From an uncultured Alphaproteobacteria bacterium (lineage in GTDB: Bacteria > Pseudomonadota > Alphaproteobacteria > MPNO01 > UBA2964), in contig OX638326.1 of the NCBI GenBank assembly GCA_951812775.1, forward strand, positions 818,335-882,334: a stretch of 64,000 nt of DNA, written 5' to 3'. Made by a program: the position numbers and the translations under genes. The notes under the pieces were generated by a model. It saw only the letters and a list, made by a program, of their open reading frames with translations, had not been told where the DNA came from and made no database searches. Of the stretch, positions 34,587 through 40,782 are shown piece after piece; the first letter of the stretch is position 1, and the number at the start of each line of letters is the position of its first letter.

Positions 34587-35372
34587 ATGGCCGGAGGCCG
34601 CTCGCGACGCCGAAAAAGTCCCCGGAATTCAGGAAATTCGCAAGAAATGTGGATATACGGCCACCATGCTGTTTTCGCCGCTTTAAAAAACTCCGACCGA
34701 ATGGCCAAGCGCATTCTCCATTTGCGGGACTCATTACCGGAAAATGAGCCGCTTCCTACGGAAATAGATATAGATCCTGAGATCGTCTCTCGAGACCAGC
34801 TAGAAGCCGTTTTGCCGCCCGGTGCGGTTCATCAGGGTATGGCTGCTTTGATGAGCCCTCTACCAACGATTGCGGTAGAAGATATATGTGCAGCAGCGGA
34901 AAACCAGGAAAAGGCCCTGGTTGTTATTCTCGACCGGGTATCCGATCCGCAAAATATTGGTGCAATTATCAGGTCAGCAGCTGTTTTTGGGGCGATGGCC
35001 GTAATCATTCAGGACAGAAACGCCCCTCAGATAACAGGCGTTATTGCAAAAGCCGCATCAGGGTGGATTGAACAGGTCCCCCTCGTTCGGGTCACGAACC
35101 TGTCACGGGCGATCGAAACCCTCAAAAACAGCAATTTTTGGTGCATCGGCCTTGATTCAGAAGCGCCGGGCGACATGCAAGAAATCAATCAACCTTCACA
35201 TACGGCGCTGGTGCTAGGCGCTGAGGGCGCCGGATTACGGCGTTTGGTAAGGGAAAATTGCGATGAATTGGTCCGGATCGAAGGATCTGGCGGCATTGCC
35301 AGTCTGAATGTATCCAATGCTGCTGCCGTCGCGCTCTATGTCCTCAGCCGAGAAAACACCAACCAGATATAA
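34587..35372 (+). CDS. rlmB: TrmH-family 23S rRNA 2'-O-methyltransferase (RlmB type)
   Basis: SPOUT-fold enzyme that would methylate the ribose of G2251 in 23S rRNA. The N-terminal substrate-binding domain carries MWIYGHHAVFAAL. The SPOUT motifs are DPQNIGAIIRSA (motif 1), LVLGAEGAGLRRLVRENCD (motif 2) and SLNVSNAAAVALY (motif 3). 261 residues. AAGGAG lies nine bases upstream of the ATG. Divergent from tRNA-Tyr; three bases separate it from the next gene. RlmB rather than a tRNA methylase is inferred from the N-terminal domain and the location. Confidence 0.92.
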   Translation: MAGGRSRRRKSPRNSGNSQEMWIYGHHAVFAALKNSDRMAKRILHLRDSLPENEPLPTEIDIDPEIVSRDQLEAVLPPGAVHQGMAALMSPLPTIAVEDICAAAENQEKALVVILDRVSDPQNIGAIIRSAAVFGAMAVIIQDRNAPQITGVIAKAASGWIEQVPLVRVTNLSRAIETLKNSNFWCIGLDSEAPGDMQEINQPSHTALVLGAEGAGLRRLVRENCDELVRIEGSGGIASLNVSNAAAVALYVLSRENTNQI

Positions 35373-35375
35373 GAA

Positions 35376-36866
35376 ATGCCGTTTTCCACCTACCTCGCCC
35401 AGTTGCTGAGTGATTTTGAACTCGCGGTGAGTCAATCCGGCGTTGGCCGAACCCAAGCTGGAAACATACTGCAGCTGGCACTGGCCGATATTCAAAAGAA
35501 CGACCTGGATGCAGCGGAAAGCAGCCTGAAAAATTTTAACGGCCAATTGCCTGCCGCCGGTCTTGTAATGCTGGGCATAATTGCTGGACTACGACGAGAC
35601 CAGGAAGTCTGCACAACCTGCTTTACGGAAGCTGTTGAAGACACAGAGGCCGAGTTTGATGTTCTTTGCCTTGCCGGGGACTTCGCACGTCATTTTGATT
35701 TTCCCGAAATCGCCTTCAAAGCGTATGACCGCGCAATTGAGATCGCGCCACATGCTAGCCACGCTCATCTACGCCGGGGACAGGCCTATTCAGAAACAGG
35801 AGATGTTACAGCAGCAATTGACGATTTAAGGCGCGCGACGCTGCTCCAACCCAACCTATGTAAAGCGCACACGGCCCTCGGTGACGAATATCGCTCCGCT
35901 AATATGACCGATGCTGCCTATAAAAGTTATCAAACAGCCCTTGAAATTGATCCCAAAAATGCTGACGCCCAGAGCGGTCTTGATCAGACCTTGGCGATGG
36001 TGGTGCCGCAATGGCATAGCACGATGCTCAATGACACGAACCGGAATCAGGCTTTTGAAAATGCGATTTCAAGTGCGGTGACATCTGGTTGCACAGTCCT
36101 CGATCTCGGTACCGGCACCGGACTCCTTTCGATGATGGCTGCCCACGCGGGCGCTGCACATGTAACAGGCTGCGAGTCGGTTGGTATTCTTGCGGACACT
36201 GCTGAAAGGATCGTGCGGCAAAATGGCTTTGGTGATCGAATATCGGTCCTTCACAAGCGTTCGCAGGATTTGGTGCCGGGTGAGGACATTCAAGAACCAG
36301 CCAATATTCTCGTAGCTGAAATTGTTGATACAGGGCTTCTCGGCGAAAATATAATCGCATCGATAGCTGATGCAAAAAAGCGACTGTGCAAAGCAGAGGC
36401 AACGATCATTCCGCAAGGCGCCACGGTATATGCCGTCCCGATTGAAAGCGAAGCGCTCTCAAATGAACGAAAGGTAGAGTCAGCAAGCGGATTCGATATT
36501 TCTTTTTTTAATTCTTTGCGGCCCAATATGTATCTGCAAACCGATCTGTCGAAATATCAGTGGCAAATGCTGAGCAACCCTGTTCAGGTTTTCGATTTTG
36601 ATTTCACGCAGGATATTCCTGAAGCGCATGAAGAAAGTTATCGCGTGACCCCTCATACCGATGGCGTCGCGCACGGGATCGCATTCTGGTTTGATCTGCA
36701 TCTAAATTCGGAGATTACCCTGTCCACGTCACCCGTCGCACCACCGACCCACTGGCACCAGGCGGTCTATATTTTTTCCAACCCGCCAGAAATCAAGCAG
36801 AACGAACCGATACGACTCAACGCATCACACACTGGGAACAAGATCACCCTCATCCTGGAAAGTTGA
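35376..36866 (+). CDS. TPR protein with PRMT7/9-like protein arginine methyltransferase domain
   Basis: The first 205 residues are helical, with TPR-like units such as AYDRAIEIAPHASHAHLRRG and SYQTALEIDPKNADAQSGLD. From about 210 a PRMT-type catalytic region follows: WHSTMLNDTNRNQAFENAI, SAM motif I VLDLGTGTGLL (241-251), ribose-binding Glu267, a double-E-type loop AEIVDTGLLGE (Glu315 and Glu324), then a beta-barrel with HGIAFWFD and a THW motif at 458-460. These are hallmarks of eukaryotic type II/III arginine methyltransferases and are rare in bacteria. It is probably cotranscribed with rlmB (three-base gap), so a ribosomal or RNA-binding substrate is possible. Automatic pipelines may call it an L11 methyltransferase-like TPR protein. 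Confidence 0.82.
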   Translation: MPFSTYLAQLLSDFELAVSQSGVGRTQAGNILQLALADIQKNDLDAAESSLKNFNGQLPAAGLVMLGIIAGLRRDQEVCTTCFTEAVEDTEAEFDVLCLAGDFARHFDFPEIAFKAYDRAIEIAPHASHAHLRRGQAYSETGDVTAAIDDLRRATLLQPNLCKAHTALGDEYRSANMTDAAYKSYQTALEIDPKNADAQSGLDQTLAMVVPQWHSTMLNDTNRNQAFENAISSAVTSGCTVLDLGTGTGLLSMMAAHAGAAHVTGCESVGILADTAERIVRQNGFGDRISVLHKRSQDLVPGEDIQEPANILVAEIVDTGLLGENIIASIADAKKRLCKAEATIIPQGATVYAVPIESEALSNERKVESASGFDISFFNSLRPNMYLQTDLSKYQWQMLSNPVQVFDFDFTQDIPEAHEESYRVTPHTDGVAHGIAFWFDLHLNSEITLSTSPVAPPTHWHQAVYIFSNPPEIKQNEPIRLNASHTGNKITLILES

Positions 36867-36873
36867 CGGAAAC

Positions 36874-37926
36874 TTAGTCGGCAAAGGCGGGAGCGATTTC
36901 TTCGGTAAAACGGTGCATTTGTTCTTTGACCATTTCATGTGGTTTGCGGCCAACATTAAAATAAAGGATCACTTCATCAATCCCTGCCGCCTCGATGTTT
37001 TTAAGGCTATCGATGATTTTGGCGGGCGACCCTATAAGAATAGAACGATCTGATAGATCTTCCTTCTTGGTGTTCCGCAAAACCTCATTGATCTTCATAA
37101 AGTAATGCATGGTCGGCGGCATTTTACTTGGGTCATCCGGAAAAGCGCGCAGTACACAGTTCTGGAAATAATCTATCTGGTACTGACGTCCGCGATCTTC
37201 TTCCTCAGGCGTGTCCGCAATGTAAATAAAATAGCTGCACATCGCGCGACCAGGCGTGTTGCCCTGGGCAATGGTCGCGTCGCGATAGCCATCGACAGCT
37301 TCCTTCAAACCTCCAAACACCATCGCTGCAGCAAAGGGCGCATAGATGATATTGAATCCTTTGCGGGCTGCCAGATCGACCGACGTCTTGGAGAACGAGC
37401 CGACATAGATGGGTATCGGATCCTGAACTGGTTTCGGCGTAATCTCCATATTATCGATATGATAATGATCACCGTGATGCGACCAGACACCAGGATCAGT
37501 CCAAGCTTTGTTCAGGACATCCAACCCTTCCTCAAAAACCTCTGCCGAAGTCATAAAGTCGGCTCCGAACGGGACATACTCCTCCCGGTCATAGCCACGT
37601 CCGCAAGCGTAATCGGCCCTCCCGCCCGACAGAAGATCGAGGGTCGCCCACATCTCCGCCACATGGATTGGATGATGGATCGGCAGCACATTTACTGCCG
37701 GCGCCAATCGGATTTTTTTAGTCTCCGGGATAATGCTGGCGAGTAAGATATCGGGGCGTGAGTTTACGCCAAGCCGGTCGAAATGATGCTCGCCGATCCA
37801 GGCGGAATGATAGCCTAGCTGATCAGCAAGGATCGCCTGTTCCCGAATTTCCAGGACGAACTGCGATGCCGTCCTTGGATTGTCCGGATAATGATTATCC
37901 GAAAGTGTAAAATAACCGAACTCCAA
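36874..37926 (-). CDS. LLM-class flavin-dependent oxidoreductase
   Basis: Luciferase-like monooxygenase that uses reduced flavin. The start is set at TTG 37924-37926, five bases after a strong AGGAGG, giving (fM)EFGYFTLSDNHYPDNP and 350 residues. An upstream ATG would add 69 unlike residues. Family features: HSAWIGEHHF near residue 50, RIRLAPAVNVLPIHHPIHVAE-like active-site region and YACGRGYDREEY. The substrate is unknown. It converges on the PRMT-like gene and is near a Rieske dioxygenase, so a role in oxidation of an aromatic or terpenoid compound is possible. Confidence 0.88.
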   Translation of the reverse strand: MEFGYFTLSDNHYPDNPRTASQFVLEIREQAILADQLGYHSAWIGEHHFDRLGVNSRPDILLASIIPETKKIRLAPAVNVLPIHHPIHVAEMWATLDLLSGGRADYACGRGYDREEYVPFGADFMTSAEVFEEGLDVLNKAWTDPGVWSHHGDHYHIDNMEITPKPVQDPIPIYVGSFSKTSVDLAARKGFNIIYAPFAAAMVFGGLKEAVDGYRDATIAQGNTPGRAMCSYFIYIADTPEEEDRGRQYQIDYFQNCVLRAFPDDPSKMPPTMHYFMKINEVLRNTKKEDLSDRSILIGSPAKIIDSLKNIEAAGIDEVILYFNVGRKPHEMVKEQMHRFTEEIAPAFAD

Positions 37927-37980
37927 CGAAACCTCCTGCGCCAGTATTACTGTTTGTTCTAGATAAGCTGAGCCCAATTG

Positions 37981-38010
37981 AAAAGGGCGGCCCTTGAGCC
38001 GCCCGTTTTT
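37981..38010. terminator. Bidirectional rho-independent terminator
   Basis: GGGCGGC, loop CCTTGA, GCCGCCC, flanked by AAAA on one side and GTTTTT on the other, so it has a T-run on both strands. On the minus strand it follows the stop of the gene fragment ending at 38027, which suggests that fragment is the true end of a former gene. Confidence 0.75.
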
Positions 38011-38026
38011 CTCAATGTCACGTCTC

Positions 38027-38275
38027 TCACGCCAACGCGTAAGGAACCTGTTCGGGTCCTTTAATAACAACGCGCTCGCCGTCTTCAAGATAGCGATATT
38101 GTTTAAAGGTGCCGGACCGCTTGGACCGAACAATGACAGCGATGGATTTTTCGTTGCCGGAATACTCTGAATGTATTAGCCAGGGTTTCACGACATCAAC
38201 TTCTCCAGGACCGCAATATTCCGAATGGCTTTCCTGCGTCTCGAACCGACCAGCGATCACGACGCGGGCGATACA
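38027..38275 (-). pseudogene. C-terminal fragment of an unrecognised gene
   Basis: A minus-strand open frame whose last 80 or so codons read like real protein (VDVVKPWLIHSEYSGNEKSI, then VIVRSKRSGTFKQYRYLEDG, ending GPEQVPYALA). It is followed by a good terminator. The 5' part is missing: further upstream on its strand the DNA becomes the antisense of a truncated SDR gene. I do not recognise the family. The upper boundary is approximate. Confidence 0.5.
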
Positions 38276-38882
38276 TGCTCTTGGTGGTCTGCACGGGATC
38301 GTCAACAATGCCGGGATCGGACTGTCTACCATCCGCGAGAATTATTATGTCGATAACATCAAATTCTGGGATGTCCCGGAGGAACGCTGGCAGGCGATCT
38401 TTGACGTCAATGTCCGGGCGCCCTTTTTGATTTCGAAAGGCGCGATGGCGCATCTTTTAGAACAAGGCTGGGGACGCATCGTCAACGTCACCACAAGTAT
38501 GGACACGATGATTAGACGTGGCTGGACACCCTACGGACCATCCAAGGGTGCGCTGGAAGCCCAGTCAGCTTGCTGGGCGGAAGACTGCGAAGGCAGTGGT
38601 GTGACCGTAAATGTGCTCGTACCCGGCGGGCATGCCAATACAGCGATGGTACCGTCGGCCTCCTCTCCCGATCGCGAGGCGATGGTTCAGCCGGAAGTGA
38701 TGCAGGCACCAATTGCTTGGCTGATGTCAGATGATTCAGATGGGTTTAATGGCAACCGCCTTACCGGCACGGGTTGGGACAAAGCCTTGCCGGGACACGC
38801 CGCGGCTGAGAAGGCGGCGGCGCCAGCTGCCTGGCCGGGCGCGGGCCAACAAAGCGTGTGGCCTGACCTGCAACCGACCTGA
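38276..38882 (+). pseudogene. Short-chain dehydrogenase/reductase, N-terminus lost
   Basis: Starts abruptly at LGGLHGIVNNAGIGL, which corresponds to about residue 80 of a normal SDR, so the nucleotide-binding TGxxxGIG segment is gone. The remainder has VNVRAPFLISKGAMAHLLEQ, the active-site Ser and the YGPSKGALEAQ Tyr/Lys motif, and a normal C-terminus. Without the Rossmann N-terminus it should be inactive. Codons upstream of the junction belong to another gene on the opposite strand. Ends two bases before the dioxygenase small subunit, convergently. Confidence 0.8.
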
Positions 38883-38883
38883 C

Positions 38884-39384
38884 TTATAACGGATAGACGA
38901 TTGAATCCGGAATCCGGTGCGTGTCGTAAATAACGCGTTTTTCCTTGAACTTGAGAACGCCTTCTTGCTCGACGATCAGGTCATCATAGGTGGCGGCCAT
39001 CAGGAGAACCGTATCCCCATCCGGTGAGGTCTGGTAAATCACAACATTGCAACGTGAACGGTACCCTTCACCCGTATCATCGACGAGGGCTGGTCCCAAA
39101 ACATGCCGAATGACACGCGGTGCGAAGACCGCCGCATGCTGCGTCGCCGTCGCGCGGTCAACTAGCATCCCCACAGATTCAAACCGCATAACGCCAAGCT
39201 CCATGCCGCGATCATAATTATCGCGAGATAGGACGGTGTAGAGACATTTGTCGGTAAAAAACTGCGGCCAGCTATCTAAGGGACCATCATCGATCGAAGA
39301 TATATAGCTGAGCTGTAACCGCTCTATACGCCGCAATAGGACGTCATCGGTAACGGGCTGGTTCATTTCTGCCTGATGATCCAT
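38884..39384 (-). CDS. Aromatic-ring-hydroxylating dioxygenase, beta (small) subunit
   Basis: SnoaL/cystatin-like fold structural subunit of a Rieske oxygenase. 166 residues from ATG 39382-39384, which shares its A with the stop of the alpha gene (TGATG); a GTG one codon earlier is an alternative start. Family features: LQLSYISSIDDGPLDSWPQF near the N-terminus, RHVLGPALVDDTGEGYRSRC and the C-terminal FKEKRVIYDTHRIPDSIVYP. It pairs with the alpha subunit encoded immediately upstream. Confidence 0.92.
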   Translation of the reverse strand: MDHQAEMNQPVTDDVLLRRIERLQLSYISSIDDGPLDSWPQFFTDKCLYTVLSRDNYDRGMELGVMRFESVGMLVDRATATQHAAVFAPRVIRHVLGPALVDDTGEGYRSRCNVVIYQTSPDGDTVLLMAATYDDLIVEQEGVLKFKEKRVIYDTHRIPDSIVYPL

Positions 39385-40652
39385 CACGTACCTGCCTCGC
39401 CATACCCCATGATGTCGCGATAGCGCATATAGAAACCCCGAATAAGGGACTCGGTAACCAGATGGTCATTGGATTCACAATCGGTGCCCCCAATTTCAAG
39501 CACCGCGGCCTCTCCTTCAGGCGAACCTGTAAAACCGACCTGGCTAAACTCGAGCGCTTCCGCATCGTCCAGCGTGACATAACCGGCGGAGCCCATCAGG
39601 TTTGCCTGTCGCAGACGCAGATATTTCATTTCGTCATCGTCATCTTCATAACCGAAGAATGTCCAGACGAGTTCATGGCTTCCCGACCCTTTGGGAATGA
39701 CCTGGCGCGTCGCAAGCGTATTGCACTGCGCCTGAATAATAATCGATGGGAATAGCGTCTGAATAGACAACGTAATATTGTCGCCAAATTCCAGACGAGG
39801 CTGTATCAAATCATGATCTGTCAGCGCGAAATCCGGCGCGGCGATACGGACACCGCCTGTATCTTCCTTGCCTTCCTCAGTTCCTTTCGCCGTCATCAGG
39901 ACGGAATGGCCCTTGCTGTCATCAACCAGACATTTGGATTCCTGATCGAGCCGGAACAACCCGAATGAAATCAGGAAGAGATGCAAAATCCCAGCATGAT
40001 ACGGATCCTTCAGATTCTCCATCTGAAGTTTCCAGTTACAATCGATGACCTGACGTTCATAGCCGACGACCCGTAAACCGCGACCATCGAAAATGCGGGT
40101 GAAATACTTCACCATATCCGGGCCAAGATAATCTTTTAGCGGCGCAACATTTTGATCGAAGCTGGCAAAGACCACACCGTTCAGGCTTTCGACCCGCAAA
40201 TTCACCAGGCCATGGGCCTTCATGTCGAAATCCGAATTGAGGCCACCCTTACCATTGATACCTCTCTTAAAAGGCATCCCCGTCAGCTCACCATCCAGCG
40301 TATATGTCCACTGATGATACGGGCACATGATTGCACTACCGGTATTGCCGGATAGCGCCTGACAAAGTTGCGCGCCACGATGGGCGCAACGATTTTCGAC
40401 AACCGAAAGCGCCCCGTCATCCTTGCGGATCATCAGGACTTCCCGTTCTCCTATGAAATTGCGCCGAAAATCCCCCGCTTCGGGCACCTCGCACTCCAGA
40501 CCGACATAATTCCAGGAGGAGCCGTAGAAGATGCGCTCCAACTCCTGCGCATAAATGTCCGGATTCTGATAGATCTGAAACGGAACACGCGTCGTTCCGG
40601 CTTCCGACCAGATATCAGTTTCTGACTCGTTCGTGGTTTGAGTGCCGTCCAT
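39384..40652 (-). CDS. Aromatic-ring-hydroxylating dioxygenase, alpha (large) subunit
   Basis: Terminal oxygenase of a Rieske non-heme iron system. The Rieske cluster ligands are CAH and CPYH (Cys89, His91, Cys110, His113 from the chosen ATG at 40650-40652; a TTG four codons earlier is possible). The catalytic iron site is DPYHAGILH with the preceding ENLKD bridging Asp. 422 residues. No ferredoxin or reductase gene lies nearby, so electrons must come from elsewhere. The type (anthranilate, salicylate or other substrate) cannot be decided from sequence alone. Confidence 0.93.
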   Translation of the reverse strand: MDGTQTTNESETDIWSEAGTTRVPFQIYQNPDIYAQELERIFYGSSWNYVGLECEVPEAGDFRRNFIGEREVLMIRKDDGALSVVENRCAHRGAQLCQALSGNTGSAIMCPYHQWTYTLDGELTGMPFKRGINGKGGLNSDFDMKAHGLVNLRVESLNGVVFASFDQNVAPLKDYLGPDMVKYFTRIFDGRGLRVVGYERQVIDCNWKLQMENLKDPYHAGILHLFLISFGLFRLDQESKCLVDDSKGHSVLMTAKGTEEGKEDTGGVRIAAPDFALTDHDLIQPRLEFGDNITLSIQTLFPSIIIQAQCNTLATRQVIPKGSGSHELVWTFFGYEDDDDEMKYLRLRQANLMGSAGYVTLDDAEALEFSQVGFTGSPEGEAAVLEIGGTDCESNDHLVTESLIRGFYMRYRDIMGYGEAGT

Positions 40653-40782
40653 GTCTTCGTCCAATCTAAAAAGAATGGCGGCAAGTTACCCGAGCGAATT
40701 AGTGCCTTCAAGCGATTAACAAAGCTGGACCGCTCATATCGAGAATGAAACAATTCGTTGATTACAAATCAGGGAGAGCTTC

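Follow-up and report, generated by a model that had tools for sequence, protein, structure and literature searches.

A TPR-bearing alphaproteobacterial protein with a single PRMT module, a probable arginine methyltransferase of the PRMT7/PRMT9 clade

Introduction

The methylation of protein arginines by PRMTs is regarded as a trait of eukaryotes. The closest described relatives of the protein reported here are animal PRMT9 (PDB 8rbk, 6pdm), in which TPRs are joined to a PRMT module that is followed by a second one, and PRMT7, which is without TPRs and consists of tandem modules in animals (mouse; 4c4a) and of a single module in T. brucei (4m36/5eku). Type I PRMTs (PRMT1/3/4/6/8) are recognised by an SExMGxxLxxE double-E loop together with a YFxxY N-terminal motif (PMC12925635). 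Inactive PRMT modules are also known, namely T. brucei PRMT3 (PMC12925635) and the C-terminal module of PRMT7 (PMC8399567). Among bacteria, the arginine-guanidino methyltransferase SznE/StzE of Streptomyces uses free arginine and acts with SznF on N-omega-methyl-L-arginine (PMC11705231); the saskemycin cluster encodes a distant homologue of SznE (PMC12637814). The open-licence literature yielded no bacterial PRMT characterised as methylating proteins, which does not amount to proof of absence.

The window analysed here is a 64,000-nucleotide stretch of the genome of an uncultured alphaproteobacterium. An earlier note had described one of its gene products as a PRMT7/9-like arginine methyltransferase with a TPR domain, located three bases after rlmB.

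Results

The gene (35376-36866, + strand) is an intact reading frame from ATG to stop that encodes a 496 aa protein, comprising a TPR array and a single PRMT module according to the Pfam, PDB alignment, model and fold match results. The 4.15 Mb genome has one copy of it, and the other matches there are to the TPR part only. The TPR array, of about five repeats, occupies residues about 27-209 (35454-36002, +) and is supported by conservation and by helical repeats in the structure model, as well as by several Pfam TPR models that score above cut-off within residues about 113-202, bearing out the TPR domain of the earlier note. It is followed on the same strand by an N-terminal motif of PRMT7/9 type, W213-H-S-T-M-L-N-D-T-N-R-N224 (36012-36047; WHFIMLNDTKRN), identified by motif alignment including that with PRMT9, and then by SAM-binding motif I, VLDLGTGTGLL (residues 241-251; 36096-36128), and the double-E loop E315-IVDTGLLG-E324 (36318-36347). 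The PRMT_C beta-barrel/oligomerisation subdomain (PF22528; residues 348-488; 36417-36839) matched with 64.8 bits (E = 1.2e-17, cut-off 27), well above what chance would give, and has a conserved GFD (372-374) in its presumed dimerisation arm. The THW loop T458-H459-W460 lies at 36747-36755, and the protein ends after this one module, the tandem second module of PRMT9 sensu stricto being absent. The features of the PRMT family found in the protein are a Rossmann fold with motif I, the PF22528 barrel, both double-E glutamates and THW. Among the best 25 NCBIfam matches, none reached its own cut-off. Comparison of the gene with its closest relative gave a dN of about 0.23 and a saturated dS of about 2.9, which indicates purifying selection.

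A PDB search with the catalytic part retrieved mouse PRMT7 (1.9e-47), bovine PRMT9 (5.8e-45) and T. brucei PRMT7 (about 2e-32). The PRMT9 and PRMT7 sequence matches of the window protein spanned 1e-42 to 2e-47, against 1e-23 or weaker for the type I enzymes PRMT1, PRMT6 and CARM1. An AlphaFold2 model built on a 14-sequence alignment had a mean pLDDT of 90.1, and a Foldseek search of the PDB placed bovine PRMT9 first (E = 8.2e-26), ahead of the PRMT7 enzymes of T. brucei and mouse; the match to PRMT9 spans 427 columns and so exceeds the length of the catalytic module alone. Closest PDB relatives, best fold match and the tree position given below thus agree with the PRMT7/9 resemblance proposed in the earlier note.

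Motifs were compared with reference sequences of PRMT1, Hmt1, CARM1, PRMT6, PRMT7 and PRMT9 that came from PDB chains or had been checked against them. E315/E324, motif I, the 213-224 motif and the THW loop lie exactly where the earlier note had put them, and each of their columns aligns with the corresponding motif of PRMT1/4/6/7/9. In the double-E loop, AEIVDTGLLGE of the window protein stands opposite TETVDAGLFGE of PRMT9, TELFDTELIGE of mouse PRMT7 and SEWMGYCLFYE of PRMT1; in the THW loop, THWHQ stands opposite THWKQ (PRMT1), DHWMQ (PRMT7) and TCWEQ (PRMT9). Membership of the type I group was rejected, as both of its signatures are missing from the protein and AEIVDTGLLGE and VPQWHSTM are found in their place. 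With PRMT9 it shares WHxxMLNDTxRN and an ExVDxGLxGE double-E loop, at about 33% identity across the aligned catalytic region, whereas PRMT9 has a second module and TCW where the bacterial protein has one module and THW. With PRMT7 it shares an ExxDTxLxGE loop and HW, and with the T. brucei enzyme also the single module, but PRMT7 lacks the TPRs.

The junction between the two parts of the protein was also compared. From the last TPR through the linker to the WH motif, the protein aligns with PRMT9 without gaps. P193, a proline of the TPR, and W213 are 20 residues apart, a spacing shared by PRMT9 and almost every bacterial relative. Linker lengths would be expected to vary had the fusions been independent, so the TPR-PRMT architecture of the bacterial protein and of PRMT9 is likely to have a common origin. 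TPR residues 121-180 are about 86% identical among close relatives, a conservation equal to that of the catalytic core and compatible with a binding partner that does not change.

This eukaryote-like protein does not stand alone: the family recurs in Alphaproteobacteria, with PF22528 detected in 36 of 386 sampled genomes. It was also detected in 10 of 397 Pseudomonadota genomes and in none of 14 control genomes, and some family members carry beta-, gamma- or Bacteroidota labels. The gene was carried by all nine sampled genomes of the organism's genus and by two of four others of its family, and a scan for a few exact peptide patterns, restricted to one genome per species, yielded 14 relatives. 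Phages and viral contigs gave no match, and a phage or viral origin was rejected. Across 48 distinct bacterial relatives, H214 and R223 are invariant (48/48 each) and E315 (47/48), W460 (46/48) and H459 (45/48) nearly so, as are G245, G247 and E267. Position 324, a Glu in the window protein, is Glu in 32 relatives and Pro in 15, so that the double-E loop is not universal in the family. The substitution is seen in a well-supported subclade including Azospirillum and Niveispirillum (loci L016, L018, L019, L051, L063, L064 and relatives), which reads SELIN(V/I)GML(A/S)P and keeps the HW loop; its catalysis or substrate may be different.

In the trees, the bacterial proteins and PRMT7/9 are split from PRMT1/4/6 with support of 100/100 in a reduced set and 99/99 in a larger one. 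Eukaryotic PRMT7 and PRMT9 are placed inside the bacterial set, and the window protein falls in a bacterial subclade of its own and is not sister to animal PRMT9 alone. Bacterial monophyly with respect to PRMT7/9 costs 7.7 log units and was not rejected (AU p = 0.18), and neither was moving PRMT9 to PRMT1/4/6 (AU p = 0.20). As both arrangements stand, eukaryotes are thinly sampled and PRMT9 is a long branch, no direction of transfer is claimed.

Two further proteins stand apart from this pattern. A 354 aa open frame from a non-alphaproteobacterial member of the Pseudomonadota (L112) is without TPRs, carries a type I-like SEWMGHCLFYE loop and THWDQ, and is positioned between PRMT1/4/6 and the PRMT7/9 clade. 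On a plasmid of Eleftheria terrae (L125, 4423-7074), an 883 aa PRMT-module protein adjoins acyltransferase and phosphopantetheinyl transferase genes and groups weakly with animal PRMT9 (92/80).

Upstream of the gene lies a separate rlmB-type SpoU rRNA 2'-O-methyltransferase (34587-35372, +; SpoU_methylase, 135.8 bits), and the gene starts 3 nt past its TAA stop codon, just as had been reported. Within the organism's own family, eight genomes with contigs extending far enough upstream have this pair. Six of them show gaps of 3-9 nt or overlaps of 4 nt, and the other two have longer predicted overlaps, for which the start codons are uncertain. The spacing is consistent with an operon, and the two genes are probably co-transcribed within the family. 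The pair was not seen in the one readable contig from another genus of that family, nor in other families, and neighbours differ elsewhere. The earlier note had taken the adjacency as a hint of a translation-linked substrate; being local to one family, it says little about the substrate, and the hint was dropped. No constant neighbour or partner gene was found outside the organism's family by a simple longest-ORF caller that missed some genes in high-GC genomes, and the genes around the window gene included no substrate partner that could be recognised.

Beyond rlmB, on the opposite strand, are tuf, nusG, tRNA-Gly, tRNA-Tyr and tRNA-Trp. Downstream (36874-40664, -) are genes for a luciferase-like monooxygenase, a SnoaL-like protein and a Rieske ring-hydroxylating oxygenase alpha subunit, a set that resembles those for the catabolism of aromatic compounds. 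In Ferrimonas aestuarii, a culturable relative whose protein has all the motifs, the PRMT gene is followed (L022, 6838-7443 and the next gene) by a small protein and two paralogues that read like phage-tail-collar type proteins, which are possible substrates or partners of the PRMT in that genome.

Discussion

The sequence and the structure model together suggest that the window protein belongs to the PRMT7/PRMT9 clade and is a protein arginine N-methyltransferase that depends on SAM, an assignment that we consider probable. By analogy with known PRMT chemistry, SAM would be seated on motif I, E315 and E324 would clamp the guanidinium group of the substrate arginine and H459/W460 would shut the pocket, while two copies would pair via the barrel arm, as in single-module PRMTs. 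The conserved TPR groove may bind a specific protein partner and present it to the active site. Given its clade, the enzyme is more likely to produce monomethyl- or symmetric dimethylarginine, as do PRMT7 and PRMT9, than asymmetric dimethylarginine. Counted against this overall assignment are the Pro at position 324 in 15 of the 48 relatives, the TCW rather than THW of PRMT9, the lack of a neighbouring substrate partner, and the fact that SznE, the bacterial enzyme characterised for this chemistry, uses free arginine (PMC11705231).

This last point raises the alternative that the window protein methylates free L-arginine, or a small-molecule guanidine, and thereby supplies a natural-product pathway in the way that SznE/StzE contributes to the synthesis of streptozotocin (PMC11705231). 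Besides SznE/StzE and the saskemycin-cluster homologue (PMC12637814), likened here by description as bacterial enzymes sharing the guanidino methylation of arginine that is predicted for the window protein, it is favoured by two TPR-less PRMT homologues encoded on plasmids of Pantoea dispersa (L122, 5941-6906) and Methylobacterium indicum (L126, 5911-6834). These adjoin genes for an iron-containing redox enzyme, a Rieske protein and an ATP-grasp enzyme, and nest among TPR-bearing proteins in the tree. They resemble enzymes that act on small molecules, SznE being an example, and they fit its role better than the window protein does; each locus is possibly part of an unrecognised biosynthetic cluster using methylarginine. 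However, the window protein branches apart from both and has a conserved TPR array. SznE/StzE and the saskemycin homologue differ from it in their free-arginine substrate and their setting in antibiotic clusters; the window gene sits in a housekeeping neighbourhood beside rlmB, among tuf and oxygenase genes, and no biosynthetic cluster of SznE type lies near it. A free-arginine enzyme is therefore improbable here.

Another possibility is that the protein derives from a PRMT but is no longer catalytic and acts as a scaffold through its TPRs. There is precedent in the inactive PRMT modules (PMC12925635, PMC8399567), and a sister clade is without the second Glu. Every catalytic motif is intact in the window protein itself, though, and the gene is under purifying selection, leaving this explanation very improbable.

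The double-E loop, THW and the PRMT barrel are foreign to PrmA. This counts against the least probable explanation, that of a PrmA-like or other ribosomal-protein methyltransferase acting on lysine or an N-terminal amine: despite a shared class I Rossmann fold, the nearby rlmB and homologues annotated as such, the Pfam PrmA match is weak (36.5 bits against 64.8 for PRMT_C) and partial, covering the generic Rossmann part only (profile 154-259), the rlmB linkage is lineage-local, and a true, full PrmA (201.8 bits) is encoded elsewhere in the genome. PrmA identity was thus rejected, and the best profile match to an L11 methyltransferase that the earlier note had named as refuting its reading did not occur. 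Relatives are publicly annotated as either '50S ribosomal protein L11 methyltransferase' or 'tetratricopeptide repeat protein', and the former name is a mislabel.

The protein arginine methyltransferase that we favour would combine TPRs with one PRMT module of the PRMT7/9 clade, a TPR-carrying type for which the open-licence literature gave no characterised bacterial member. Tentatively, and we regard this as somewhat unlikely, the TPR-PRMT fusion may have arisen in Proteobacteria as a genuine protein-arginine methylation system, from which eukaryotic PRMT9, with its TPRs, and PRMT7 would descend by gene transfer.
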